In this document: positions 1,171 to 27,000 of the stretch, piece after piece
Numbering within the stretch: the first letter of the stretch is position 1
How the letters are laid out: the number at the start of each line of letters is the position of its first letter
Assembly: GCF_000003605.2 (NCBI RefSeq)
Contig: NW_003138338.1
Span: forward strand, 81,910-109,584
DNA from: Saccoglossus kowalevskii
Taxonomy: Eukaryota; Hemichordata; Enteropneusta; Harrimaniidae
DNA: 27,675 bases
Direction of reading: 5' to 3'
Translations under genes and position numbers: made by a program
Notes under the pieces: model-generated
Database searches by the model: none
What the model saw: only the letters and a program-made list of their open reading frames with translations
Told to the model about the DNA's origin: nothing

Positions 1171-1868
1171 TTTGTAGTTACTATACTTCACTGATTTACC
1201 ATTTCTTTAATAATTAGTTACCGTTCGGAGGAAGTTCGAAAATGGGGACTTATAATTCGGTCTTTGTCTGTCTGTCTGTCTGTGTGTCTGTCTGTCCAGA
1301 GTCATGTTTCAGAATCCTTTGGACCGATTCCGTTCATTCTTTGCATGTGTCTAGTACTTTATGTGGGACATATGCACATGCAGTGGTTTAACGATTCGAT
1401 TCAAAATGGCCTACTGGCAGCCATCTTGTTTTTTGATAATGTTGTGTTTTGGACATGCTTTGTCAGTTTTCATTCAAATTTGGCACATACTTTATACATG
1501 TAAGGATACATGTCCATGACAATTTGTTTCAAAATCGAATGGCCGATTGACAGCCATCTGACTTTTTGGCCTTACTACTATATTTCCAAGATTTATGTAC
1601 AATTTTCATTCGTATTTGGCACATGCGTCGTACATCATGTCACTTTGTTTCATAATCAGATCAAAGATGGCCGAATAACGGCTGTTTTTATTTTTGGACA
1701 TATTACTATATCTGTGTCACCATGTATCATTTTCATTGTTATTTAGCATGTCATAAATGGATACATGTACATTCAATTTGCAATTTGATCAAATATGAAC
1801 GACTGGCGGCCATCTTGTTTGTTTAAAATGTGATAACTTGGACATGCTTTCACTTGTGATCTATGTTT

Positions 1869-2805
1869 GACTCCCATGTGTGAACCACAAAATGGGAGTC
1901 TTTGCAGTTAGTGTGTCTGTCTGTGGGTGGGTGGGTGTGTGTGTGTATGTGTGGGTGTATGTGTGTCCGACACTGTTCCACTGATATCTCAAGAACCATA
2001 CATCAGTTTTTGATGAAACTTGGTGCATTGATGCTCTGGGCCAATGCGCAGATTTGATTAGGTTTTGGTGAAATTTCATGCATATTAATTACCTAATTTG
2101 CATGATAATATGCTAATTTTTAGCTGTTCCATGACTGTTCCATTGATATCTAAAGAACTACTCATTGGATTTTGATAAAACTTGGTATATAGATGCTCTG
2201 AACTTGTGCGCAGATTTGATAAGTTTTTGGTGAAAATCCGTGCACATTAATTACCTAATTTGCATGATAATTAGCCAATTTTTAGCTGTTCCATGACTGT
2301 TCCACTGATATCTAAACAACCACTCATTGGATTTTGATGAAATTTGGTATATAGATGCTCTGAATCAATGCTAGGTTTTGATTAGTTAGTACATGGATGC
2401 TGTAGAATAATAGACAGACCTGGATAATTGTGGGTTAAAATCCGTACATATTAATTACTAATTTGCATAATTAACCACTTTTAAGCTATCACACTGATAT
2501 CTAATTATTCCATTTCAATGAAACTTTGTACAAAGATGCTCTAGGACAATGTACAAACCTGATTAGTTTGGGGTTAAAATCTGGTTATATTAATTCCCTA
2601 ATTAGCATAATAAAACTTGATACAAATATTGGTTTTATATATTGTGCAGACCTCATTAGTTTTACACTCAAGTCTGTTCATATGAATTTTCTGATTTGCA
2701 TTATTGGTTTTCAGCTTTTCCATCACAATCTCAATCAAGTACAAGTAATTTTGAATTATATTTAATGTGCCTCCAATACTCTCAGCACATGGGAGTTCTT
2801 TCTAA
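1869..2805 (+). repeat. Hairpin-started repeat, long copy with internal tandem units, nested in the 1216-3014 element
   Basis: It begins with arms GACTCCCAT (1869-1877) and ATGGGAGTC (1892-1900). GT-rich simple sequence follows, then about four diverged units of about 160 bp, each with a block like CCACTGATATCTAA, then GATGAAACTTGGTATATAGA, then TTAATTACCTAATTTGCAT. It ends near CACATGGGAGTTCTTTCTAA. It is the same family as 323-632. No open frame of note. Confidence 0.7.
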
Positions 2806-2838
2806 GCTTTCTTTGATTTTCTTTGCTACATGTATGTC

Positions 2839-2950
2839 TTAAACCGGAGGGGTCGTCACGCAACACATTTGAATTTGATGTAAATAAACAATATACGCCA
2901 CTTGGGGCTCAAGTTTGAAAGACATACTCGCGACAACCCTCCACTTTAAT
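2839..2950. repeat. Imperfect inverted repeat inside the 1216-3014 element
   Basis: Arms 2839-2860 and 2929-2950 are about 22 bp each and share TTAAA..GGAGGG.TCGTC.CG with several mismatches. It could fold as a hairpin or be a remnant of a small inverted-repeat element. Confidence 0.4.
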
Positions 2951-3014
2951 ATGTCGAGCACAAAGAGAACTTTCAAAAATTTAACGGGGACTGTGTCATT
3001 TTCAATGACTTGTT

Positions 3015-3062
3015 TCTTTCAAATATTGTTGTTTTCCACCTCAGGTTATTGAATATGAGTAA
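3015..3062 (+). pseudogene. Duplicate of the MICU1 exon a splice acceptor with an immediate stop
   Basis: GTTTTCCACCTCAG then GTTATTGAATATGAG (3045-3059) exactly repeats the true acceptor and first five codons (3156-3170), but TAA follows at 3060-3062. It could act as a decoy acceptor. If used, the message would read VIEYE-stop. Confidence 0.9.
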
Positions 3063-3155
3063 ATCTGAGAAGTGTTATATTTTCTTTGTAGTTCCTATAC
3101 TTCACTGATTTACCATTTCTTTAATAATTTTTTTCAAATATGTTTTCCACCTCAG

Positions 3156-3318
3156 GTTATTGAATATGAGAATAGAATCAGAGCATATTCTACACCAGAT
3201 AAAATCTTTCGTTACTTTGCTACACTGAGAGTACAGAGTGAGCATGGGGATTATGAAATATATATGACTCCTGAAGACTTTGTTAGGTCCATCACACCAG
3301 ATGCTAAGCAACCTGAAG
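3156..3318 (+). CDS. MICU1: MICU1 exon a (ends phase 1)
   Basis: The acceptor is TTTTCCACCTCAG and the donor is GAAG|GTAACG. The exon encodes 54 residues plus one base. It opens with [18 protein letters not shown], equivalent to the human segment beginning VMEYEN about residue 111, so some 110 residues are encoded upstream. It contains [12 protein letters not shown], the helix leading into the first calcium-binding lobe. The acceptor and first 15 exon bases also occur in a duplicate just upstream (see 3015-3062). Confidence 0.95.
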
Positions 3319-6300
3319 GTAACGTATATATACTGTACTTTAATTTCATTTATATCGCATATAGCATAAGTAGACACAAATAGATTCTATCTTTTTATCT
3401 CATATTAGTGTAAAAGCCTACTCATAAATGAAAATACCCAAAATGTATTTACTTAGCTAGTAAAATGAAAAAAAATTAAGAAACAAAATTATTTATTGTT
3501 TACTTTTTGCTATCCTGAATTATTTAAATAATCTTTGTTTGGAAAAATAATAAATGCTATTTGCTTCAATACTGTGTTCTGTGGAACTGTACTAAAAATA
3601 GCTGCACTCCAGAATGTATGTTACCATAATTCTATAGCACCATAATTGTATATACATGAAATAAACCAATGAACAGTATTCCGTGTTTTATAACCAACTT
3701 TCAAAAAACATATTTCAATAAATTATAACTACCAGCAAGAAAATAATATGATAATATTGTGGAATATGATCACCTTAGTGCATACTTTACAGTATTCTTG
3801 TGATAACCTTGTATTTGCATTCATTGTAATTACGTTTATATTTCATGTATACTGTAAACGACTTTAGTTTTGTGGGTGACTCTGACTTTAGCTCTGGTTC
3901 GCCAATTGTTGTCATCACAAATGCCATAAATCATCAAATCTCAAAAATTAAACGATTTTATATAATATAGTTTACATGTAATTTGAAATATATCTAAAAT
4001 CTAAACAAAACATGTTTCCTATCTGGTCCTTGTTCAATTGAATTTGCTTTAATATAAAAGAACTCATGAACTCATTTTCTCAGTCTATTTATTGAAATAT
4101 ATAAAATGCATATGTTAGGTAGGGTTTTCACAATTGGTATGTAGAGAATGAAAAACTTGAAAAAAGAGAAACTTTCATTTTTATTTTTACTCATCATATG
4201 CGCGCAAAAGGTCGCCGGGTCAAGCCCTGGTGGTACAAATATATCAGTATTCATGTGTTCTGTTGTCTTTTATTCCCTGTAGGCCTTGGTCTAGATCAGT
4301 TCAGGAGATATGATCCAAAGGTATGTATCAGTATTCAATACAATGTCAGTGTTAGGTCGTGGGGTCAAATTAGAGGCCAGTAGATTAAATTATCATAAGT
4401 GGGTTTATATTAGCTATGGTATTAAAATTTCAGAATTGAAATTCAAGATGTTGAATATAAAGGACCATTTTTTCTTGTATTTTTAATCCATAGTTACTGA
4501 GCCAAAATAATATTTGTGGTATTTAATGGATAAACACACATTACCTGGTGTATATTCATGATAATTTAATACCAACAGATGGACATGATTTTTGTTTGAA
4601 CAAAAATTTATTTCTCAGCATTCTAGGCACTGTTTATATATGCATATCATCATGACGTTTTAACCCCATGTGGATTCACAAAGATCACAAAAATAGATGC
4701 AGATAAGCAAAAATAAAACAAATGGCAATTAGAACTCTAAAATAATTGGAGCCTCAGATTGAGATTAGTTGGTTATTATAGTAGCTTCTTATTTATTTAT
4801 ATATAGATGCTGTACATTTCATATTGTATTAGAATCCTAATGTAATAATGTCACTCTTCAATTTTATTTTAAAAGTTTTTGAACTTCCAGAACATTACAA
4901 TTCTGTATTGTTAATAAAAAAATTATAAGAACAATTTAGCAGACTGAAATTTGGAAAAATTAAGATATTAGTGTAAAACATTACAGTAAATTAGCTTTTA
5001 CGAGTAATCTTTAGTTTATGCTAGTTTATCAACCAAAAAATAGTTAGTAATCAATGCAAGTGTTTTCCTATGTAGGCAGATGGAGCAGCTAGGAGTTTCA
5101 TATCGTGTTGGAGACAGGTAGAGTAACTTTGGGATCAACAACATTTGTTTTAAAACAATTAACCAGATTTCAAGCAATTTGTTATATACAATCTTAGACT
5201 AACAATTTTGTTATGGCTAATCTATTTTACATAGTTTTATGTTTTTGCATTTCAGATATTTTTTTTATTACAGAAAATATTGTGCTTGTGTTAGTGCAGC
5301 CCCTTGTTTTAGTGTCCCTCCTTGTGTTAGTGCTGCTCCTTTTATGGAAACCACTAAAATTCCATGATGAAAAACAAACATTTGTGAATTTCACTCATTT
5401 AAAGTAGAGATGCAGTTTACTTGACAGGTATTTTAATTAGTTAATTAGGCAACCAAGATGACCTCCCTTGTCCACAAAACTATATATTTTCGAAAAGCTT
5501 ATTGTATGAACTTTAAAATTGTGTTAGTGTTTTTTTTCTATGGACACTTATAGTTTGAAATATGCAAAAAAATGTGCTTTTTTGGTCAAAAGTGATTTAA
5601 AAAAAATTAGCTTCTAAACCATGCTTCTGTTTCCTGTCAAAATTGGTATATGGGTACATCTGTTTACTATGAAGAAAGTGCCGTCTTGAAAACTGTCTAC
5701 CAGTTGTCAATTTTACAGGGCGGCAGCTCAAATTTCACTACTTCAAGTTTATGCATAAATTAACACCCAGGCTAGTTGTTTGTACGATTGTTGTATACTG
5801 TTCAACCAAAAACAATTTCCCGACGGCGTTTTGAAGATAAACACATTGTCAATCATTTGTGAAAATTTCAAAACAAAAGGTCAAAGCGTCTAGGAGCTAT
5901 TTTTTTTTAAAGTTCCGGGTGTTGCACTAAAAAGAAGCTGAGATAATTGCTAATTTGCATAACAATTCACTCAGTAAGAAGTTTGCTAATGCTCATAATT
6001 AAAATGGCTGTAACAGTTCCAAATTTAAATGTATTATCGTTTTGTTAAAAGTTAAATATAGTGCATAATATGGAGATCCCGTCATTTCTTTTTTTCACCA
6101 TGTTTCTTTTTAGCTCCGCTGTCGACTTTGTCGAGCGGAGCTTATCATATGAGTGATTGTCCCTCGTCGTCCGTGTCAATGTTTTACTTTTTCGACTTCT
6201 TCTTGAAAACTACAAGCCTGAATGCTTTGATACTTGGTGTATATGTACCTTGGGTAGACCTCTCTTAGGTTTGTTCATTTCATGTTGATATCTTCAATTC

Positions 6301-9300
6301 TCTAATTTTGGTGAATATTTTTGTCATTTTTGGTAAAAAGTGATATTTTCGACTCGTTAAAAACCGCAAGTCCGATTGCTTTGATATTACATATATAGGT
6401 ACTACATGTGGGTCCCTCTCAGATTTGTTCATTTTGTGATGATGTCTTCAATTCTCTAATTTTGGTGAATATTTTTGTAATTTTTGGTAAAAAAGTGATA
6501 TTTTCGACTTCTTGTTAAAAACCAAAAGTTTATTTGCTTTTATATTACATATATAGATACTACATGTAGACCTTTCTCAGATTTGTTCATTTCGTGATGA
6601 TATCTTCAATTCTCTAATTTTGGTGAATATTTTTGTCATTTTTAGTAGAAAGTGATATTTTCGACTTCTTGTTAAAAACTGTAAGTCTGATTGCTTTGAT
6701 TCTATACATAATGTTCATTTTCTAATGATGTCTTCAGTTCTTTAATTGAAATGTGCATTGCTAACAGTGGAGCTATCTCAGCCGATAGGCTGCTTGTTTA
6801 TTATTTATGTACACCCTTGCTAAATCTTGCTAAGCATTCAAAAGAGAGAATGTTTGCACCTGTTATCTATAATTAAAAATCGTTTTTTGAGTATTTTCCA
6901 CTATTCACAATTGTACAAAATTTTAACAGTCTATAGCCAAAGACTGTTTGGACAATAAAAAGCAAAAAAAAAAAATTCACTCCAAAGTGCCCACGAACCT
7001 GCATCTCTACCTTAATACAACAATAAATTTCATGGATTGCAGTTTACACATTGCTGTTGTGCATTGCATCTATACATCATTTCTTCATTCATTTTGATCA
7101 GTTTGTTTGGACCAATATTACCACTATTGTGGTGTTGACAAAATTACTTGCTCATCTAAGAATGTACAGAATGACACAGTATGTTAATGCTTTGGAGCTG
7201 ACATTTGCACAAGTACTTTACAAAGTAATTTTTATGTTAGTTATGTTATGTTGGATCATTATTGTGTTTTTTTTTCTTCAAATTTTATTCCATTTGCTCT
7301 TGCATGTAGTTTAATATTATATGAAATTTGTACCAAGCCAAACCTAAAACTACAGAAAAGCACAACTGCAAACCGTTCAATTTTCACTTTGTTCCAAATA
7401 GTTGCTGTGATTTCTTGTCTGCAGGGAACTTGTGAAATTTTTGTTTCTATAACATTTCATGATTATCGCTGACTCAGGAAAATTAGCACGGTTTGCAATA
7501 TGTAGAGGGTTGCATGGTACAAGTAATTTTTCTCATAATTGATTTATATAGTAATTAAGGACTTATTTCCTCTATCAGAGGCACGTACAACTAATACGTA
7601 AGTGGATTTATAAATGGAGAACTCCTTGATTCCTTATTTTGGTTGTCTTGGTAGCATATACATGTACCAATCACTGCAGGGAGCAACGTACCTGGAGGTT
7701 ATTAAGGCCATGATTTGAACTTTGCTATGTTATAGACACCTGATTCCTTTATTTACACAAGTACAAGTGCATTTACTGAATAATTGGTTAAAGCCTAAGG
7801 TCAGTTGACCTGGTCACTAATCTTAATAAAAAATGGGGACTTATACTAATACACTAATAGTGTTTTGTTCATGTGTCTGTCTGTCTGTTTGCGCATGATC
7901 ATCCAATATCATTTCTCAAACATGCCTGAGCTGATTTTGGTTGAATCTTGGCACAAAAGTCATAATAGGAGACATATGCAAGTCGATTAGCTTTTCGCTC
8001 TGTTGACATTTGACTGACTGGTGGCCATTTTAGTCCCAAAGTATGCCATCAACATTTAGCATCTGTTTCTTAGGTGAACCTTCACCGAATTCATTCAATC
8101 TTGGTGTTGACAACACTCATGGTGGGTCACTGATGTTTGTCAATCTTATTCAAAATGACCAAAAGTTTTCTTGTGATTTCTATATCAAATTTAACAAGTT
8201 AACAACAATTTTCTTTTTTTCTGACATACCTGGGCCAATTTTATTCAAACATAGTAAAAACATTACACATAGTGTTTTGATGCATGTCTATTTGGTTTGT
8301 GCATTGCTTTAAAGTGGCTGACTGGGGTAGTGGAAGCAGAGGGGCCATGTTGGTTTTCTCAGACATTTTCTTCCAAGAAACTTGTCCTTTACTCAGAGGG
8401 CTTTATCATACTTTAATACTCAGTCACATAAAACTGTTTTTGGTGGTATGCATGTGCTTCCTTATTTGACTTTTTGCTGACAAAATTCTCACACATACTA
8501 CCGGTAGATGTACATTGGATGTGCACATCATCCAAAAAAATATTATATTTATAACATATCATTAAAATATGACTTAATTTTACCATTGACACATCTGTGT
8601 CATTTACATGAATAGAGCTTATTGGTATATGGAATATTTAGGAACAAGTATTAACTCAAGTAAAGAATGGAAATAATCAGTCACAAACATTTTTATAAAT
8701 GTGGAGACATCTACTTCATGACAGTTATTTCTGTTTCTATTTCACTAATAATCCCATTGTTTCATTCTCATCAATAATGTCATTTGAAGTTTCCCAGTTC
8801 AATAATTAATAATTCTAATTCTGTTTGAATAATCTCTTTGTTTGTTACAGTGATTGATTCTTTTTTGAGTTTATATTTAACTTTACTCACATAACCTTTT
8901 ATTGCTGGTGTAAGTTGCTAAGCAATGCTTTGTACTGATATACATGTAGTAATAAACATTAACATGTTTAATGTTTGTAGAGAGGTACAGTAGTTATATA
9001 AATTAATTATAACAGTTCATGCAATAATAACTACAAAGTAAATGATTTGGCAAAATTAAATAATTATATACTTTGCAAATTTAAAATCATCCATTTATCT
9101 ATTCTTTTGTTCAAATTCATCGTATATATCATATTTTTTAACTATACATTATTTTCTGTATTTGTAGCGCATTTACCGAGTACTTCACAATTACATTATT
9201 ATAAATTACATTTAAAAATTTTATGTCAAAAAATGGAATATGTTTAATGATTTGGTAAGATTCAAGTGCAATTTTTGGTTTATATGTGTTCTAATGATAT

Positions 9301-12300
9301 TGGAGATGTGCTTCTAGTAGGACAAATATGGTATATGTAACATTTCATTTTTTTTGTATTCAATATTTTTTATTTTAGAATAGCCTTTGAGTATGTTCCA
9401 TTCAAAATTCACTTTGCAACTCTTTTTTCTTTTTATATATAGCAAACTGACAAATTAATGTGTTTTCACCCCTGTATATCTTTATTTTATCAGCAAATTA
9501 AATGTTTCCCAGAACTCATTATAATTTATACAGATTATTTAGCCTAATTTGCATATCAAATCCCTTAAATGATTTGCATACTGCACTAAACTATTTAATG
9601 TTACAAATGTAATTGAGTTTGGCTAACTACCTTAATAATTTTATCATTTTAGGAGAGATTGCCGAAATGTAGTGTTAAAAATAAACATAAAGTAGTTCTT
9701 CCCAGAGAATAATAGAGTGGTGGCCCATTACTATAATTGGATATTAAAAGTCGTAACACTGAAAACAAACACAGCACTGTGATAGTTCCCTGGGGAGAAC
9801 ACTAAATTGAGTTAAATCCTTATACTTAATGGACGATGGTCGTCGTGTCGTGTGCTGTTCGATATGAGACTCATAGCAACATATACAGTACCGGTATATG
9901 TAAAATACAATGTTTATTTACATGAAATTCGAACATGCACTGCACGACAACCACTGCACTTTAAAGCACTATAGTCATTGCACCATGTTCTGTTCTGTTC
10001 TGTTCTCATAGCGTTGTACACAGACAATAAATACATTGTAAATTTATTTTGCTGAAATATAAATGTATAATGTGTTAAAAAACTGATTTAGCATTAAAAA
10101 AAAACATTGCATCATTAAAGGGACTCAGTCAGAACACACCTCCTCATGTCAAATATGGGTTCCATGTGACGTACATGTGGAAAATTCATTATTCACATAT
10201 TATTCAAATATGCCACTTCCAATATTCCACGCTTTGAAAATTATCAGGTCATCACAAGAATGTCGCTAAGTGTGCACTATGGCGATACGTCAATGAGTTA
10301 TAGAGAAATCATGTAAACTCATAGTCCTGTACTGCCTGAATACATACATGTACATTTGTATTTTGCAGTATTCTTGTAGTATATCTTTTTCCTACATAAT
10401 TTAATGAGGGATTATAACCCAAAATGGCAATGAAAAATGCTTTCTGCTATATTTTCTGTGATGCTATTCGATCGTACTATAGCACTTCTGCAATCAAATG
10501 TACACAAAGGCACATGTTTGAATTTGACATTAGTAACTTTGAATGGGTCAATGCTGGTGACATAGTTCACCCTATATATTGTAAGGGAAAATTTGAAAGT
10601 TCTAATGAGTGCTGATAGATTTTAGAATGAGTGCTGATAAAGCTTTTCACAGAACACCAAATCCTATGTATAATTATTATAATAATAACTTTATTTCAAC
10701 ATGTTTTCAAATAGGCTTGGCTCACACATGGTCTCTTTAAATGAATCATATTATTTAACGTATTAAGTGCTATCAAAAATGGATTGGTACATTAAGAACT
10801 GACTTGTCAATATATATATATATATATACCCGGTAGTTGATTTTTTTGTATATACCCGGTAGTTGATTTTTTTGTATCTAAGACCTTGTTGGTGATTCTT
10901 TGCAGAAAGTTGGTGCTACCTCTCAGTTCTCTGAAGAAGGCAGTATATTCAGTACTTTAGGACAGTGTGGACTCATCACATTCTCAGATTATATATTTCT
11001 TCTTACAGTCTTATCAAGTAAGTATATTTTACATTCAGGAGATCTGTTATTACCACAGAATTTCATTCTCTAAGAGCAGCGAATGAATGGTTGAACACTG
11101 TTGCATCTTGTTATGTGAAATGATAGAAAGAGTGATAAATAATTGAATAGCTAAAACTAATTGCATTTATTCATAATATACCGTAAAACATGTCTTTTTC
11201 GCGAGCATGTCTTTTTAGCGAATTTTATAGCGAGAGAACTGATTCGCTAATTCAAGATGTTGCTAATGACTTTATTATAAATTCAAAATGGGAATTTGTA
11301 TACAGTAATTATGAAAACAGGAAATCAACAATGACAAGTGAGATTAGCTAAATCAACATTTCGCTATTACGTTATTTTACCAGAATTCGCTAAAATTGCA
11401 TGTCACTTTTTCAACATGTTTTACAGTAGTCTACATTACACAACACTGTAAATCACCTATGTAAAAATCATCAAAATTTGTGACTTCAGCAAAGTTTTGT
11501 CTTCACTAAGGCCAGACTTTTATTATCCATTGTTTCGCGAACCCGCCGAATGAACAGGAGCCGAAAATGAAATAAAAATAAAATTTGATTTCAGCGTAAT
11601 TTCTCGCGCCCGCGACTTGTAAGCGCAAAAAATGCTAAAAAAATATTATTTTTATCTTCATTTTTTTACCGCCCGCGCATAACAAATCCAAGTTGCATTT
11701 TCATGGGAGTATCATGATCCAAGTACCGATGTCTCGAGCAGATGAGAAAAACGTTATACATAGAATAAAATTTTATTTCATTTCTTCTCTCCGATCAATG
11801 ATCTCATTTACAATTCTTTGAGAATCACACAAATCCAATGGAAAAAAAGAATTAATTTTATTTTTTTTTCGCTCCCCCTCAAAAAAGGTGCTTTACAAAA
11901 ACTCGAGAAACAAGGAACAAAAAATGTCTGGCCTAATGCCATAAAATCCTAAAATCAATGAACGCAGTGAAAGTTAAATAGTTTTGTTCCTCATATAGCC
12001 ATTTTAACCTTTTACCAACAGTTCTCTCTTTTCATCACAAATTCACAAAATATTCCAGTTTATGGTCTGCAATTTCCATTACAAGATTGGGACTAAAATA
12101 GTCAAATATTTTAACTAAAAACTGAAAATTTACTCAAATTTTGTCTGTTGACTCCAAAATTAGGGTTCATCTCAGAAATATTGCAGATTATAAGAAAATA
12201 GTGCAGAACAATATGGATTAGTAAGTCTGATGGTGAAAAGGTTAAACACAGACTGGGGTGTTTCTACCATACAACCTCTGACCTACAACCCCTGACCTAC

Positions 12301-15300
12301 AACCTATACCCTACAACCTCTGACCTACAACCTCCGACCTACAACCTGTATCCTACAACCTGTACCCTACAACCTATATCCTACAACCTCTGACCTACAA
12401 CCCCTGACCTGAATCCTGAAGATTAATACAACTTTATCTGATATTTAAAATTAAGTTATTAACAACCCTTTCAGGAATTTGATCTTCCAAACAACATTCT
12501 ACTGAACCAAACAACCATGAATATTCACATTGGTTAGTACTTATAATGTGCTCATTGTTGAATTCAAATTACAAAATTGCGCCACTCCAATTGTATTATT
12601 ATCTTGCCTGCATTTTTGTGATCACGTCCAGCAAAACAGAAATTTTGCACAATATTAAAAAAAACACTTGGTCACTGTCAAATCAATTAAGAGGTAAAAC
12701 CTAGCCATCAGCTTAACTCAAAAAACAAAACAAAACAAATTATTTATTCATACCATTACAGTCATATGATATTCAATAACTATTCCAGATATTTGAAACT
12801 GCGTATCACTAACATCTGAGTTAATTGGTTTTAGTAGTACTTGTATGAATGTTGCGGTATGTTAGAGGTCAGCAAAACATGTATTTTATATAATTGAACT
12901 GAGTGAGTTTTTATGGATTGTGACTGAATAAAAAGCCAGATTCAAAGAGTTGACGATGTATAAAGACATTCTACTCTAGAATATATCTGAACATTGGGCA
13001 ATAGGTAATTTTTCGTTCAACTGCAAGATATCACAAATTGTGTAAAAGGCCGTACGAACATCTGCCGTAAAAATCAAACAATTTGATTTTGAACTTGAAT
13101 TTCTGTTTTTCATAGCTCAAAGTCGAAAGGGTGATCTTTGAAAGGGGAATATTGCGTTCAGATACCCTTGATTCATCGAAATTGACCATAAACAAATGTG
13201 TACAGCGCATTTTTAAGCATGGAAATATCCCCCAAAATACTTTCGTGTTGAATCCTACATGATGTTTGATGCCACCACGATGCTATGAACTTTGTTTGTC
13301 CTGTTTTTACGTTCGATTTCACGCATAATATGGGATCTTGCAGTGAAGGGACAATAGTCTGTATGTCGAGGGTATAAACAACAAGCAAAGATATTTGATA
13401 GCGGATACAAGACATTGCTAGAGAAAATTAGCATATTTGATGGAAGATAATCACCAAGCTTATGCATACCGGTATATCGCATAATAATCCTAAGACCCTA
13501 AATAAATCTTATTGAATGTTCTCAGAGTGCAACTTTAATAATTGTGTAATATTTTATTTCAGCTCCTCCTAGGCACTTTGAGATAGCATTTCGTATGTTT
13601 GATTTAGATGGCAATGGAGAGATACAACCCTTTGAATTCGAGAAGGTATGATGTTAGTTTATCATGTGTAATGTGTCAATCACTACAGTGTACTGTTAAT
13701 AACGATATGTAGACTAGGTATGATTCAAGATATTTTGCTGTGTGCTTCTTAAATCGCCACACTATCTAATAAATAATGTATTTTACATGTGTTGTATGCA
13801 TCTATTGGGACTCAAAAACAACACAGTGCGATAACATACATGTAGAACAGCACTACATTACATGTTCATCAGAATATATGTTTGGGAAAAAATATATCTG
13901 TAATCTGTGATTACCGTCAAAGTGCTGTAGAATACTTTATTTTTGCTTGGAATTATTTTTTGCTATTTTCACTGAAGAAATAATTCGGTGAAAATAAAAT
14001 CCAGTGAATATACCTTTTTTCCTATATTTCACATTCAACTCGTCAAAAATCAGTGCAAATAATTCCATGCAAAACACCCAAATAGTTTATTCAGTGAAAA
14101 TTAATTCCAGTAATTTACAGTATTATCAATCCTTGTTATACCGGTATTTCCTGGTTGGACAAAGTCCCAAAATGGGCACTATAGACTCACTTTTGTGCAT
14201 CTGTTCATTCATTTCTGTGACATGTCATATATACTACCGCAGACAATACATCGCTCCTCTAAATTGTGCTCTCTGGTGATATAGTGCTTATATGACGTAA
14301 GCGAATGAAACAAAGACAGTTCAAACCTGTGTTTAAAGCATTGATATTGTTTTGATCTATAGTCGTCCCTCAATGGAGACCATGTTTGGGGAGATTTTAC
14401 TATATTCCAGATTACGAACAACAACACAGCCAAACACAGTTGTTGAATTGAAGGACATTGCCTTCCCCCATATACGTAATTTTGACATCACTAGAAGGTG
14501 CAACTTATATGAATGGTGTATAGACCAGTGAGATTTCATTATTGGATCTAAACATGAGTCCCATGCAACATACAAATGTATACATGTCTAAAATACAGTT
14601 TTTCTTCACACAAAATTTAAAAATGCTCTGCATGGTGATTGATGCTTTATACATATTTTGTTAACCGTAATTTAAATCATGTATAAGAGTCTTTAAATTA
14701 GAGCCTAACATGGTTACTTGCATGTACATGCTTGGAGCATTGTCCTCAAATGGGAAGTCATGAGGTATCTCTTGCTAAGATTTATTTACCTATAGGTAAT
14801 AAAGTGAATATAATAAGGGACAGAAAACCGGGACAGCTAACAGAGACTTAATTCAATTTGTTTTCAGGTTACACAAATAATCCGAGCACAGACAAGTACA
14901 GGACAGCGCCACCGTGACCATGCTGTCACTGGTAGCACCTTAGCACATCATATCAACAGTGCATTGACAACATATTTCTTTGGAGAAAATATGGATCAAA
15001 AACTGACAATAAATAAATTTATTGAGTTCCAAACAAGACTGCAGGAGGAAATACTCAAATTAGAGGTAAATTTATAGTTTTGCATTGTATAATTATATAC
15101 TGGTAAATTGTGATGACATTCTGATGGTTAAATGATTAGTGAATATATTCTATCCGGATGCTTTAATGAGATTCAGAGGTCATACCATTTCTACAATGAT
15201 CTACATATGTTACATTGAATGGCCCATACTACATGTATTTCTATTGTCCTACTGGAATGCAACTCAGTATGGTACATCACATGAATATGTGCAAATCAAC

Positions 15301-18300
15301 CTATTCAACTGAAATGAATTAGTTATATCCATCATAGTCTAACACCAGCAGCTACATGTACCTAAACAATGGTATGTTATCTAGGCAACTCACTACATCA
15401 ACACAATCCAGCAAGAAGTTTATGTTCTTCATTCGACAATTGTATTCTTGTTAAACTACATGCCAGGACAAAAGAAATTCGGTATTACCAGGTTTCACTT
15501 ATATTAATCCCAATACTTGGAATGAGTTACTTTTTGATAATAAAAATTCAAAATCTTTATATTCATTTAAGCATTCACTAAAGGCGTTTATTTTTAAACA
15601 TTTAAAAGTAAGTTTTATTGTGCAGTGACTGGATGGCAAAATCCGATGTTTACACCTGGAGATAAAATAAAGCAATGTTCAATGCTTCTTGTATTAAATA
15701 TTCATGTATGTGTCTCTGTTAATAAAAAAAAACACTTATGGGTGATGTTGTTACAGCAGATCACGAGCCAGTTTTGATCAAGGAGAGATATTTGTTATCA
15801 GATATTTGCATGCTGGTTGGCGAAAATATAAACTTGCATTTACATGTATCTTATCTTGGGGTATTTAGTGTACTGTTATCGAGCTATGTCGTTATAATAT
15901 AGGGGTGATATCTTGATTGAGTGTTACATTCTTAGTTCAATAGGTTTGATCCAGAAGATGGAAAGATAACAGAAGGTGAGTTTTCTGACTCACTTCTGGC
16001 GTATGCTGCTCTCACAGAGAAGAAGAAAACTAGGATGATAAAAAGAGTAAAGAAAGCTTTCAAAGAAGAACCACAGGTAGGCAGTGTACCGCAATAATGT
16101 CAGATTTACAGTGGAATGACAAACTAATCACTCATGATCCATGTTTGCAGTTCAAAAGGTTTTTAGTTCCCGTTCGGACACAGTCCGAAAACGGCGACTT
16201 ATGTTTTGACCTCCGTGTGTCCGTGCGTGCATGTGTGCGTGCGTCTGTGCGTGCGTCTGTGCGTGCGTCCGGACCTGTATCTTAGAAATGCCTGAATCAA
16301 TCACAATCAAACTTCACACATACATCATACATGATATTATACATATGCACGTCAATTTGTTTCACGATCTGATTCAAAATGGCTGTCTGGCAGCCATTTT
16401 GTTTTAATGAATGGGCTTCTAGAGCCATATCTCTTAAATGCTTTGACTGATTATATTCAAATTTTATATATTCATTATACATCATGTTATATATATACAT
16501 GTATTCAAAATGGCTGATTTTGAATGCTGTTCCAGAGCAATATTTCTCAATATGGACAAGTACTTGTTTGACGATCAGATACAAATGTCAATCATTTTAA
16601 TGTTAAAAAATCATATTCCTGACATGGTTATATTCCAGCTATATTACTATAAACAAAACTATATATCTTAAATTTGATAACTAACGGGGACTGTGCCATG
16701 CATGGCTTGTTGAACATTGAAGTCACTGCTGTTGATTTTATTTGTCTTTGGTGCAAACCAATCTCCTATAATTAAAAATACCACATGTTTGAAAGACAGG
16801 GCAGATCTCTGATTTATACTGATCAGTAAACAGTTGGCTCCATGAATTTAACCAAGAAACCTTCTTGATGTTAAACACAGTACCATCGCCCACATCTTGA
16901 TATGTTTCCCCTTCTCATTTGTGGTTCATCACTGTGTCAGAGAAATAAAGGTAGCTTGCTGTGATTTCAATTAGTCAAAAATATTTCAATTTAGAGTGTT
17001 CAAAAAACTTTATATTTTAACAATACATAAAAGTCACAAATTCAATTTTGACTTGATTATTAATGTTCTGTTCACAGGGTGTAACATTACAAGAATTTTT
17101 AAGCTTTACAAAACTGTTACGAAGTATCCATGATGTTGATACAGCACTGACATTTTATCATGTAGCAGGAGCACCTATAGGACATGGTAATTTGATACAA
17201 ATATTAATTTTTACTGTTGTTAGTGTGCTTATAAAATGATGGACAAAAACTACTGCTACAAAGAAATAGTGGAAAAATGTCATGCCCATATTGCTATGTG
17301 TTTAATTCTGATTGGTTAGCCATGTGTTTAATTCTGATTGGTTAGCCATGTGTTTAATTCTGATTGGTTAGCCATGTGTTTAATTCTGATTGGTTAGCCA
17401 TGTGTTTAATTCTGATTGGTTAGCCATGTGTTTAATTCTGATTGGTTAGCCATGTGTTTAATTCTGATTGGTTAGCCATGTGTTTAATTCTGATTGGTTA
17501 GCCATGTGTTTAATTCTGATTGGTTAGCCATGTGTTTAATTCTGATCGGTTAGCCATGTGTTTAATTATGATTGGTTAGCCATGTGTTTAATTCTGATTG
17601 GTTAGCCATATGTTTAATTATGATTGGTTGTGACATATTCCCTCATTACTACAATTCAAAGTGTGCAATGTTCATGAATAGATTATTGATATCTAAATGT
17701 AATATATGATTATGTTTTATATCTTTGTCAAAGTATCACAATCCACAACAAAATAATTTTTATTTTTAAACTTATTAAACAAGGGCGCACATCCAGGTAG
17801 CTGTACAGTGCATACATACATAATTGCGTAATAATTGTGCTTGATCTTTGCTTTGTTCTCAGATACATTGAAGCATGTTGCCAAAACGGTGGCTGGTGTA
17901 GACCTCAGTGATCATATTGTTAACGTGGTTTTCACACTATTTGATGAAAATAGTAAGTACAAAATGTACCGGTAGTTTTTACTATGTTTTCTCTGGTTGT
18001 ATCATTAATGCATTACAACTATGCTTTTGACCTGAAGCTATAGGCTGGCCCATATGTTTTATTATTCTTTTATATTATAATTCCTCGAAGAACAAGTTTG
18101 TAGAATCTCGTACGTTGAGGTAAGGTTGCCATGACTGGTCTGTTCTGCTGCGCCCTCTATAGTTGTCACCACGTTTTTGAGGTGATAAATTTGCTAATGA
18201 GTAGCATAACTTGTAAGCTGCAAACCAATAGCAAAGGCAGCTTTTGATCTGACCTTTTCTATGCAACTATAACGCATACGTGATCTGACTATTAGAATCC

Positions 18301-20499: not shown

Positions 20500-22125
20500 T
20501 GGCATCTGAATTGGTTAGATACTATGCTGCAGGTACCATGGATGGACGGTCAGAATTATGTCCATTTCTAATTTTAACGAAATAGTTTTATACTTATGAC
20601 ATGACCTCAACCCCCCACCAAAGATATTGCATAGTCCAACCCTTGGCCATAACAAGACCAGAATTTAACTTAAGGGTGGAGGTCATCACATTACATCACG
20701 TTCGATACAAGACACGTAGCGTAATACACAATGCATGTACAATACATTACTTGTTCACATAATATTCTAACGTGCTCCATGACGATCTCTGCCCTTTAAA
20801 TTTCTATCACCTCAAGTTTTATTTGATACACAAGAGTTTTAAAACAATCCAATTCAAGTAAATAAAAAGCAAAGTTTCTCGACAAACAGTCACTTGTTAT
20901 TTATTTGCACGCAGATTTTTTAAAAATGTTTTTGGTAATTATGAAAGTAAAATAATACAAAATAAAAACAGCAAAATACCGATAATAAAAAAAAATAGTA
21001 AAAATAAATTAAACAACATACATCAGATTTTAATCACTGAATAATGAAGCATTTCAAATACAAAAGTTTAATAATTATCAATTACAAGATTAATTTTTCA
21101 TATATTACATTCCTTGTATTAAAATATGATGCTTCAGCAAACTGAAATAATAGAACAAGTGCCTGATCATGTAAATACAACTCTAAGATAAAAATAAAAT
21201 ATAGATCTAAAGAGTGATAATCACGACAGTGTGCATTCAAATTTCTGTGTAAATAAACCAAACATCATTCTAACATGTACGTGTTGCTATGCATGGTATG
21301 GGACCCAATTATAACAAACACAGGTGTCCAAAACCAATATTTTCCAGTGTTGTTGTGGGAGTAATAAGTTTAAAATCAACACAGATGTTATCATAGTTAA
21401 TTTTAGGGATTATAAACAATAATTATGTAAGAAAAACAAAACTGGAATTTGAATAATCCTGAGTGGAAGTGTTATTGTGCTACAAAAGTTTTCAGTTTTC
21501 TCCTAATAGAATGCATTTTATAAAGCAATTTCAATATATTTACATGACCCATATATGTGTATGAATACGAGTACACTGTATGTATAGTTGACCTTGCTTC
21601 AATGACCTCACAACTTGTATTATGATTGCACAGAAAACATCGTGCCAATTTTGCGGCACTAGCTATTATTTTTCCCCATGTACATATAGTTATATTATTT
21701 AGTAGAATAAAAACACAAACACATGTGACCTTGAACTTTTGCCCCTAAAAGATTCTGCAGCATGTTGGTGATGTAAAAATTTTTTTTGCCAATCTTGAGG
21801 TCTGTACCCCCCCCCCCCCCCCGAGTTATAATGCACATACGCATCAGCGCATACACATGTACACATCTTACAATCGTTGTAACGACACACATTGGATTAA
21901 ATTTTAATATACACGTAGTTGAAGTAACTTTTAATATAGTTGCGTTATGTTTAATTAAACACAATCACAATATAATTCAACATAGAATTTTCTGAGGTTC
22001 AATTAAACAAGCAATGATCGTTATCAAATTTAAGATAGATAGTTTTTTTGAAATATAAACGTGTCAGCAATATGGATCCAGAAGCTGATGCTTGATTATG
22101 ATTTTTTAACATTGAAATAAGTTGA
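20500..22125. other. Intergenic AT-rich DNA between the two genes
   Basis: No coding sequence was recognised on either strand. It includes a very AT-rich block at about 20900-21120, a 16-base C run, and short open frames without resemblance to known proteins. Confidence 0.5.
21807..21822. repeat. Poly-C homopolymer (16 C)
   Basis: An uninterrupted run of C after TCTGTA and before GAGTTAT, in otherwise AT-rich DNA. Open frames across it encode only poly-Pro or poly-Gly and are not genes. Length may be unreliable in assembly. Confidence 0.95.
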
Positions 22126-22129
22126 CATT

Positions 22130-22933
22130 CAGTCATCTGGTATCTAATTATCAAACGAGTACTTGTTCATAATGAGAGATATTGCTCTAGTACAACATTA
22201 GTTAAAACAAAATGGCCACTGAATGGCCATTTTGAATACATCAATATTTCTATGATATGATGTAAAATGAATATGTAAAATTTGAACATAACCAGTAAAA
22301 GTTGTCAGAGATTATAGCTCTAGAACCACAAAATGGTTGACAGTCAGTCATTTTGAATCCGATCTGAAAAACAAAAATAAAATGCATCAGGGACCAATAA
22401 TGTCTATGATGTATGTACCAAGTTTGAATGAAATCCATCCACAAACGACAGAGATCCGGTTCTAGAATTTCAGAAATGCTTGACTTTTTAGCCACCATTG
22501 GGCATTTTGAATTGGATCGTCAAACCAACACATCTGTTTATCTATTACATGATGTATAATGAATATATAAAATTTGAGCATAACCAGTCAAAGCATGCCA
22601 GAGAATCCACATTCATTAAAACAAAATGGCCGCCAGTCGACCATTTTGAATCTGATCTCAAAAACAAAATGACAGACATCAAGGTCCCATAATGTCCAAA
22701 GTATATACCAAGTTTCAACAAAATTCATCTGTAAACAGTCAAGATCTGGTTCCTCAATGCAATAAATGTTTTCAATGATTTTTCAGTACAAAATGGCCAC
22801 CATTTCGCCATATTGAATCAGAAACAAATTGCATAAGTATAATATTATGTCTGATGAATGTGTGAAGTTTGAATGTAATCCGCCCAGGCATGTCTGAGAC
22901 ACAGGTAAATCCACTGTGTCGGAACGAGGACTA
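22130..22933 (-). repeat. Inverted copy of the hairpin-ended family with five inverted AAAATGGCC blocks
   Basis: On the minus strand it begins near TAGTCCTCGTTCCGACACAG, resembling TAGTTCCCGTTCGGACACAG of copy 2, and ends near TTTGATAATTAG, resembling TTTGATAACTAACGGGG. Inside, five units carry pairs such as CAAAATGGCCACTGAATGGC followed by CATTTTGAA. The terminal hairpins are decayed. Confidence 0.6.
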
Positions 22934-23190
22934 CTTTAAGGTGTGGGTCATGACTTGCTAGGTCTGTTGTCACTTAGGTATATGTAGGTGTAAAGATAAA
23001 TGAAAATTGTCACAACGTTGATATCACAAGCAAACACACACATACATTCATAAAAATACACACACATGCATACAAATGACACACAAACGCATACCTACAC
23101 ACTGCTTCACACTGGTGCAGGTAAATATATAATTTATCTATACGATGGTAATAATGAATTATCTAATTCTAAATAAAAATTGGTCTTTTC

Positions 23191-23280
23191 GTTGTTATAA
23201 AATACTAAATTGTATGAATCTCACAAAAACTTTTCATTGTTATAAAATACTTAATTGCATGAATCTCACAAAAACCGTAA
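23191..23280. repeat. 45-bp direct tandem duplication
   Basis: Two adjacent copies both contain GTTATAAAATACT-AATTG and ATGAATCTCACAAAAAC, differing at a few positions. They account for the repeated CYKILNCMNLTKT in an open frame that is not a gene. Confidence 0.9.
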
Positions 23281-23867: not shown

Positions 23868-24045
23868 TTAAAGCACAGTGTCTACACCAGTCTGTAAGTC
23901 CAACATCTGTTTCATGAATTCATACACTGTAAATGAGACTGCAATTTGTGGTATAGCTCTGAGGTAGTTTATACTTAGTCCTCTATAAAGTCCATGTACA
24001 ATTCCATCTGATTTGTAAACTGTTAATAATGTTTGAAACCAATTC
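23868..24045 (-). CDS. SLC25A16: SLC25A16 terminal coding exon
   Basis: The acceptor is TTTATCTGTTCTAG on the minus strand. It encodes NWFQTLLTVYKSDGIVHG, LYRGLSINYLRAIPQIAVSF and TVYEFMKQMLDLQTGVDTVL, then TAA at 23868-23870. The conserved part is the final transmembrane helix. The tail after MKQ extends about ten residues beyond the human ending. Confidence 0.93.
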
Positions 24046-27000
24046 CTAGAACAGATAAATACAAGTATTATACATCTGTAACCATAACGCCATAAATTAC
24101 AGCGTGCTGTAAAAATTTGAGTCGGTTTTCAGTTTTTATCCCAAAAATTAGGTTATTTTTGTCCTAATCAATGGAAAGTGCAGATTATAAACAGAACTAC
24201 TTTGTGAATTTGTGATGAAAAGAGGGAACTGGTGGTAAAAAAATTGAATTGTCCAATGATTAAATGAATCACCACAGATAAGAAACACCTAGGACATATG
24301 GATGGTATATAAAAATAATCCACACATGGCTGTATTGGATCTTATCAATTATCGTTTACAAGTCCTCACCTGAACATGTGGGAGTCTGGTAAAATCATCG
24401 CTAGCTGCATTCTTCGCCTTGCAACATCTAATGGATATCTATAAACATGATGAAAACACTGGTTATATAACATGTGGTAGCATGGAGCATGGATGTTGTG
24501 TAGATTATGGATTGTTAATCAAGCAATATGTCATGTTGGATATTTGGTTTTCACTAAGATTTTAAAATGTCAGTTTAAATATTCACGATATTTGCAATAT
24601 TTGAAAGGTTATTGCAATACATCACAAAAAATGCCCGAATACAGTACACTGTCATACCAACCTCTGCTACATGGTGAGTAGAATCCAATTTTATGCAATC
24701 TTTGCAGTATCTTTGCAATAACTATGCGTATATTGCAAATAATTGAACTGACATGATGAAAACTTGAAAATATAAAACCCATAATAACCTAATATTATAC
24801 ATGTACATCTTTCTGATTTGGTTTGGTGTAGGATGTCAAGAACTGACCAAAATGATAAAAATTACTGGAACTTTCTCACTATAAACATTGTTTACAAAAC
24901 TACAAAAATTTCTACCTTGGAAATATTGTGTACACGTAACTGTTCCCTACTTGGAATTTGCATTTCCTAATATGGTAGGATGCAGAAACCCAGTAAAAAT
25001 ACCACTAAATTACGGCAAGCTTTAACTATACTTTGAAAAATGTATAATAATATTATCATTTAATTATACACAACCTTACAATGCATTTGATAAACAATTG
25101 TTTAATTCTACATATGCAATTCATAGTGAGATTAAACAAAATTCTGCCATGAATTGTCTATTTAATGGCCCAATATTTGGTTTCCAGGTGTTTTCCTGCA
25201 ATCCAACTTTTCACATAACAATGACCAACCAGGACATGGGATAAGCTGACAACATTCAAATATTTTCAAGAATACAGTAAATTTCATGAAGGTATGAATT
25301 TATAAAAAAAAACTTATAAAACACCTACCCTGGAAGACCATCAAAGTTCATTAAAATTCAAAGAATATGCTTTCAGAATATGGAATTAGAAGCTAATTGT
25401 TAACACTATCTCATTACCCAGCTCGGTGACAGCTTGACAGCCATGAGACTTGTTATTTCTCATTAAATAGTGTTCCATTCTCTCTTGTCATCATGTCCAT
25501 CGATTACCATGGTAACACATGCCAGGGAACAGAGGACGTGATGTCTAGAGAAAATGAACCACTATTTTAGAGAAAAAAAAAAAATGTCTGTTGCTCACTC
25601 ATCCTAAATGATATCTTGGTGGTTATTTCCATCTAAGGTCTGTCCAATGATTGTAATACTGACTGCAACACAGATACAGATTGTGTACGAATGATACAGT
25701 TTGTGACATAGCTCCAGCAGTAACAAAATTAATTAATAGAAATGTTAAATTGTGTACTTACGATACAGTTTGCGCCATAGCTCCAGCCATACCACCAATT
25801 AAGAAAGTTACAGGCAGCCTAAGTACCAATTCCTCTTTATGTTTTATAGAAGGTTTACACGTCCATTCCGTAAAATTTGTCAAAAAAAATGCTTTTAATG
25901 TTTCATATGTGTAAAAAGAAAGTCCTGTATAAGAATATAAAAGTATACATTAATAGTGAATGAATGGAATGTAGAACATTGTGCGACAAAACTCCACTCC
26001 TGAGTATTAGTGAGAACAAATTTGACTTTAATGTAGAATGCTAAACAAAATTAAGAATGTTGTCATTTTCTTTATTATCACATATTTAATATATCATGTT
26101 ACAAGAATGGAGAAAATAAATTAAAAATACGGGGTCACCGTAATGTTCAAAGCAAATAGATCAATAAAATACCCTCTGTACTTTTTGTCTGTTTTAGGGT
26201 GTTTTACCATCGTTTCCAAATATCTGAATACCCCAAAATTGTGCTCATTGACATAAACAATGTCTTACAACAAAAAGTATTAAAAATTGAATGGGACAAA
26301 ATTTAAAATTAACGATGAAATGAGTTTTCATTGTGATCTATAAGACTGCTGCTAAAATGGCATTTATTTATTTATTTTTCTCAAAAACCAGATTGACAGT
26401 GACCAAAACAATCTTGTCACACTGTTGACTAATATTAAAACAATTATGACAAAATTGCCACTGCTATGTGTGCACATGTAAAAAAAACTCACTAATAGCA
26501 TTCTGCTTTATATGCTTACCTGCATAGGGTACCATGCCTATTATTGTAGGTGTAAAACCTCTGTAAAAAGCTTTGATTCCACCTTCCTAAAGAAAATAAC
26601 ACAAAACATATACAATAAAATTGAACTTAAAAATTAAAATTTCCTGAACAAATTGTCAGTTCAACTTAAATTATAATACACAATATTTGTATAATTTTAA
26701 CCTATCAATGCTATAATTTATCTTACACACTAATTTTTCACTAAATGATCTAAATCTTGCAATAATACATAAAAGATAAATCTTTACAGTAATATCCAAA
26801 AATTGAATACCACATGCACATCATGGTACAAGTACAAAAAGATAACTCACTAGACATAACCCTTTGAACAACATAATTGATTTATATTTTTAGCATTTTT
26901 CTGAAATGTCTTTACTAAATTTGAACTGAATGGGCATGATTTTCCAATGCCTACATGTCTTGGTCAAAAATGTTTGAAAATATGAAAAAAATTATTCAGG

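Follow-up and report, generated by a model that had tools for sequence, protein, structure and literature searches.

Probable non-autonomous Helentrons nested in a MICU1 intron of Saccoglossus kowalevskii, with a paralogous empty site in a tandem duplication

A window of 27,675 nucleotides from the hemichordate Saccoglossus kowalevskii, to which all positions refer, carries in an intron of MICU1, beside a duplicated splice acceptor, a composite insertion (1216-3014, plus strand) that is very probably a HINE (a non-autonomous Helentron) inserted at a T-rich point. The sequence interrupted by this insertion recurs intact immediately downstream: both are units of a tandem duplication of ca. 110 bp that covers the 3' splice site of a MICU1 exon, the "empty site" being the uninterrupted one. 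The insertion is not a single element, as had been assumed, since a second HINE of another family is nested within the outer one. Identification as a HINE is based on the empty-site alignment, the ends common to all three two-ended copies in the window, 3' palindromes that stay self-complementary with different letters, a microsatellite, central repeats and the presence of related elements. It adds one more case to a kind of element that is already well described, and the main inference of the original prediction, a Helentron-type identity, was right: it is very probably a HINE, as the further copies in the window and its related elements also indicate.

The tandem duplication and the MICU1 splice acceptor

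Pairwise comparison reproduced the two matches from which the insertion had been recognized, with the same coordinates: 1171-1215 and 3085-3129 were identical at 44 of 45 positions, and 3130-3170 differed from 3015-3059 by one substitution and one indel of 4 nt. Alignment of the joined flanks to 3040-3200 gave a score of 172, against a maximum of 38 for 1000 single-base shuffles. The repeat was longer than previously noted, reaching 1154-1215 versus 3070-3129 (91.9% identity over 62 columns), and self-comparison of the duplication units, with the element left out, yielded 103 identities, 4 mismatches and 9 gap columns. All parts lie on the plus strand: the upstream half of the first unit (1154-1215), which is MICU1 intron and forms the left flank of the insertion, its downstream half (3015-3067), and the second, uninterrupted unit (3070-3178), which is the paralogous empty site. 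Duplicated sequence extends to either side of the insertion point, and the order along the DNA is A-E-B-A-B (A and B, halves of a unit; E, element). The built-in empty site originally described is real, and amounts to a MICU1 intron/exon edge duplicated in tandem over a short length. The closeness of filled and empty sites, which had been called unusual, is a curiosity; the find is ordinary in that paralogous empty sites routinely define such elements (PMC4067079, PMC7492417), the ends of HINEs having been confirmed in this way (PMC4067079).

Because of a run of Ts at the junction (AATAATT TTTTTCAAAT versus CTTGTT TCTTTCAAAT), the insertion point can be placed only to within one or two Ts. Since TT amounts to 12% of the dinucleotides in the window, a single copy with "T|T" is by itself weak evidence. 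The empty site bears out the claim of a T-rich insertion; the claimed lack of a target duplication at this copy holds only if the tandem duplication is independent of the insertion.

Downstream of the insertion lies a genuine MICU1 exon (3156-3318, plus strand; edges predicted from the splice-site sequence), in which all 54 residues encoded by 3156-3317 align to Calcium uptake protein 1 (MICU1) with an E value of 1.3e-24. A later exon at 14868-15065 matches MICU1 too (E 7.1e-19). The duplicated ca. 110 bp include the real 3' splice site, CCACCTCAG, together with the opening bases of the exon. The interrupted upstream unit keeps the same acceptor, ending at 3044, followed by 15 nt of exon; the sequence after 3044 reads GTT ATT GAA TAT GAG TAA, with an in-frame TAA stop at 3060-3062. 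Located 111 bp upstream of the genuine splice site, this acceptor may be a decoy.

Outer element, inner element and related copies

The outer HINE of the composite insertion begins with AGTTACCGTTCGG and finishes with a palindrome and CTTGTT, ends shared with copies at 16165-16711 (plus strand) and 22932-22006 (minus strand), so that the AGTT...CTTGTT boundaries first proposed are corroborated by two further copies bounded by the same motifs. Its 5' end (1216-1250, plus strand) comprises a weak subterminal repeat, AGTTACCGTT, and an imperfect inverted repeat, and is followed on the same strand by eight copies of a TGTC microsatellite (1265-1296, identified with Tandem Repeats Finder) and by degenerate central repeats of ca. 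130 bp (1394-1850; repeat families D6 and D8). The 3' end (2986-3014, plus strand) comprises GGGGACTGTG, the palindrome GTCATT-TTC-AATGAC and then TTGTT. The subterminal inverted repeat (subTIR) matches its 3' partner at 8 of 10 bases, a level reached by 97 of 500 shuffles and alone not significant, and with DNA parameters 82 of 200 shuffles folded as well as the 5' inverted repeat. The 3' hairpin, with a 6-bp stem of -3.6 kcal/mol as DNA, was equalled by 7 of 200 shuffles. None of the four open frames of at least 75 aa overlapping the insertion had a Pfam match at E 0.1.

Copy 2 (16165-16711, plus strand) has both ends; it begins AGTTCCCGTTCGG and closes with AACGGGGACTGTG, CCATGCATGGC and TTGTT, and includes a perfect 12-nt 3' palindrome, GCCATGCATGGC. 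Its subTIR matches at 9 of 10 bases (12 of 500 shuffles do so), and its 5' inverted repeat was matched in folding with DNA parameters by 17 of 200 shuffles. The palindrome has no loop and its innermost pairs are unable to close as a hairpin; folded as such it did not stand out in stability from shuffles, of which 94 in 200 folded as well. Inspection by eye indicated that the palindromes GTCATT/AATGAC of copy 1 and GCCATG/CATGGC of copy 2 are both self-complementary, with both sides changed at two of the six pairs. One frame of copy 2 gave a weak Pfam match (E 0.039), which is below the curated cut-off and was set aside as chance. Copy 3 (22006-22932, minus strand) also has both ends and aligns with copy 2, the score being 418.5 compared to a maximum of 170 in 100 shuffles. 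It begins AGTCCTCGTTCCG, its first 20 nt matching copy 2 at 17 positions, and closes with GCTTGTT; its 3' region is partly deleted, the GGGGACT stretch being absent and the palindrome reduced.

All three two-ended copies in the window are preceded by a flanking T, start with AGTT or AGTC, and have CTTGTT at the far end. The empty-site comparison concerns copy 1, and copies 2 and 3 were judged by their flanking letters. On the left side, the aligned region of copies 1 and 2 extends beyond AGTT by no more than two bases (TT). The 3' ends were compared by pairwise alignment, MAFFT having put the three out of register. On the right side, pairwise local alignments continue weakly, with gaps, past CTTGTT, and because similarity has no abrupt stop there the right edge was set by the common motif and the empty site. 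The 5' end pattern had no matches in viral genome contigs and none in prokaryote genome contigs, as expected for an animal element.

Two stretches, 14146-14195 and 7808-7880, are possible decayed left ends of the outer family in which no right end was recognized, and were left out of the count of two-ended copies. At 14146, 15 of 20 bases agree with the 5' end, the next best chance match on either strand being 13 of 20, and this stretch probably represents a decayed left end of the family. The stretch at 7835 (AATGGGGACTTATA, GTCTGTCTG) was rejected as a further copy, full alignments being barely above shuffles (216.5 and 191.5 versus maxima of 206 and 175.5, respectively, in 100 shuffles each).

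The inner HINE belongs to a different family and extends from 1867 to ca. 2830 on the plus strand. Its subTIR, GACTCCCATGTG, is matched at the far end at 11 of 12 bases, a level attained in none of 500 shuffles, and it contains a perfect 9-bp inverted repeat, a GT-rich microsatellite and a central array of a 162-bp repeat at 1972-2371 (Tandem Repeats Finder). With RNA parameters, the 5' ends of copy 1, copy 2 and the inner element fold at -9.4, -15.4 and -18.5 kcal/mol, respectively, values calculated without shuffles. The left part of the inner element and its repeat align to 321-533 with a score of 183, the maximum of 100 shuffles being 51. This relative, which has the same left end, may run to about 650, near which a weaker 3' partner matches at 9 of 10 bases (18 of 500 shuffles), or at 9 of 12 when 12 bases are considered (124 of 500). 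The segment 2815-2965, between the inner element and the outer 3' end, folds as RNA into a long imperfect inverted repeat of -32.1 kcal/mol, a figure likewise obtained without shuffles.

A third HINE-like family is represented at 6112-6798 (plus strand), where a T run and AGCTCCGCTG are followed by a 5' inverted repeat, a hairpin and CTTGTT. The 3' partner of its subTIR, AGCTCCACTG, matches at 9 of 10 bases (3 of 500 shuffles), and the element holds 2.9 copies of a 158-bp repeat. Altogether, the outer and inner elements are accompanied in the window by two or more HINE-like elements that belong to other families. Minisatellites occur at 1-296 (31-bp unit), at 12270-12410 (14-bp unit) and, inside a MICU1 intron, at 17296-17629 (26-bp unit, 12.8 copies with 98% matches).

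Comparison with known Helentrons and Helitrons

HINEs are known from oyster, mite and Drosophila (PMC4067079, PMC7492417). Their published description comprises subterminal inverted repeats and a 3' palindrome, to which some copies add microsatellites or tandem repeats; they insert at TT or T-rich targets, leave the target unmodified and end in a variable number of Ts (PMC4067079). The elements of the window fit this description, with a reservation on the subTIR and the 5' inverted repeat of the outer family. At copy 1, comparison with the empty site gives T-rich/TT insertion without target duplication; a 3' palindrome or stem loop is present in two of the three outer copies, and microsatellite and central tandem repeats, which are common though not universal in HINEs, are found as well. 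Terminal structure carries much of this classification, and the argument of the original prediction that T|T insertion and the lack of a duplication exclude other transposons was overstated.

By description, close parallels exist with the Cg_HINEs of the oyster Crassostrea gigas. These have subTIRs of 11-12 bp together with a complementary inverted repeat of 7-12 bp; in many of them there are microsatellites of GTCY type, and they also carry central repeats and a palindrome at the 3' side. They favour T-rich sites without target duplication, and some of them lie in non-coding regions of genes (PMC7492417). The elements described here resemble them in microsatellite type, in having central repeats, in the T-rich target and in the lack of target duplication, and also, with the reservation already made for the outer family, in a 5' subTIR plus inverted repeat and a palindrome placed after the 3' subTIR; unlike theirs, the subTIR of the outer family is short and imperfect (8-9 of 10 bases). 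With HINE-Mo and DINE-1, also compared by description, they share the TT or T-rich target, ends defined by empty sites, the absence of target modification, the variable terminal Ts and the 3' stem loop (PMC4067079). The subTIR of mite HINEs is located ca. 38-60 bp from the 3' end (PMC4067079), whereas the corresponding distance is 22 nt in copy 1 and 19 nt in copy 2. The modular organization of bivalve Pearl elements, described with central repeats of ca. 160 bp (PMC7492417, PMC5139131), recalls the 162-bp repeat of the inner element.

The insertion does not have the features of a canonical Helitron, in which CTRR follows the 3' hairpin. Its ends, AGTT...CTTGTT at a T run, also differ from the insertion between A and T and the CTAG terminus given for canonical Helitrons in PMC4067079.

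Origin of the duplication and order of events

The arrangement is best explained by two successive steps. A tandem duplication of ca. 110 bp would have copied the end of the MICU1 intron with its 3' splice site, together with the start of the exon, and a HINE would then have inserted at a T-rich point of the upstream unit without target duplication, the downstream unit, with the working splice site, staying empty and so providing the paralogous empty site. The inserted DNA would most likely have been a single-stranded product of rolling-circle replication, a mechanism suggested by family membership, with Rep/helicase presumably supplied in trans by an autonomous element elsewhere in the genome. 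The second HINE, of another family, lies inside the first. That duplication came first is less sure than the HINE identity and the insertion, because two rival explanations share that identity and differ only in the origin of the duplication.

According to the first of these, the element entered a single-copy site, and unequal exchange or template switching between filled and empty chromosomes subsequently joined the two alleles in tandem, a single event that would account for both the duplication and the built-in empty site. Such an exchange yields exactly the order A-E-B-A-B and requires no coincidence of a rare duplication with an insertion; it is nevertheless rather unlikely, given that small two-copy tandem duplications without this element exist elsewhere in the window, at 23185-23275 and 25680-25802, which makes an independent duplication not far-fetched and its chance association with the insertion reasonable. 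In the second of these duplications, 25680-25732 and 25749-25802 form a tandem partial copy (81%, offset 69, minus strand) of an exon end and donor site, one exon copy being followed by GTAAGT and the other reading ATTCGT. This exon end probably belongs to a mitochondrial carrier gene, another putative exon of which (23868-24125) matches PF00153 with an E value of 7.6e-11.

The second rival attributes the duplication to the insertion itself, through repair of the nick by synthesis running ca. 50 bp past the 3' end and restarting ca. 60 bp upstream on the sister strand. A tandem duplication flanking the insertion point on both sides is what this would produce, yet self-comparison (matches of at least 30 nt, E up to 1e-4, offset below 2500) found none flanking the other two two-ended copies, and no precedent stood out in a literature search, mostly of titles, which renders this course very improbable. 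More broadly, the duplication could be a by-product of Helentron activity, through fusion of filled and empty sites by exchange or through nick repair, that seeds tandem duplications of exon edges and decoy splice sites. This reading is doubtful, and the exon-edge duplication at 25680-25802 adds no support to it because it contains no element. Finally, a cut-and-paste MITE with decayed ends is scarcely credible: oyster Pearl elements of similar build were first described as MITEs (PMC7492417), but the comparison of filled and empty sites reveals no target duplication, and the repeats are subterminal at the 3' side and followed by a palindrome, as in HINEs.

For one HINE family the locus defines both ends cleanly and from its own sequence, and it shows two families nested in the intron of a gene. 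Should it be true that the element caused the duplication, this would represent a route for rolling-circle elements to create decoy splice sites.
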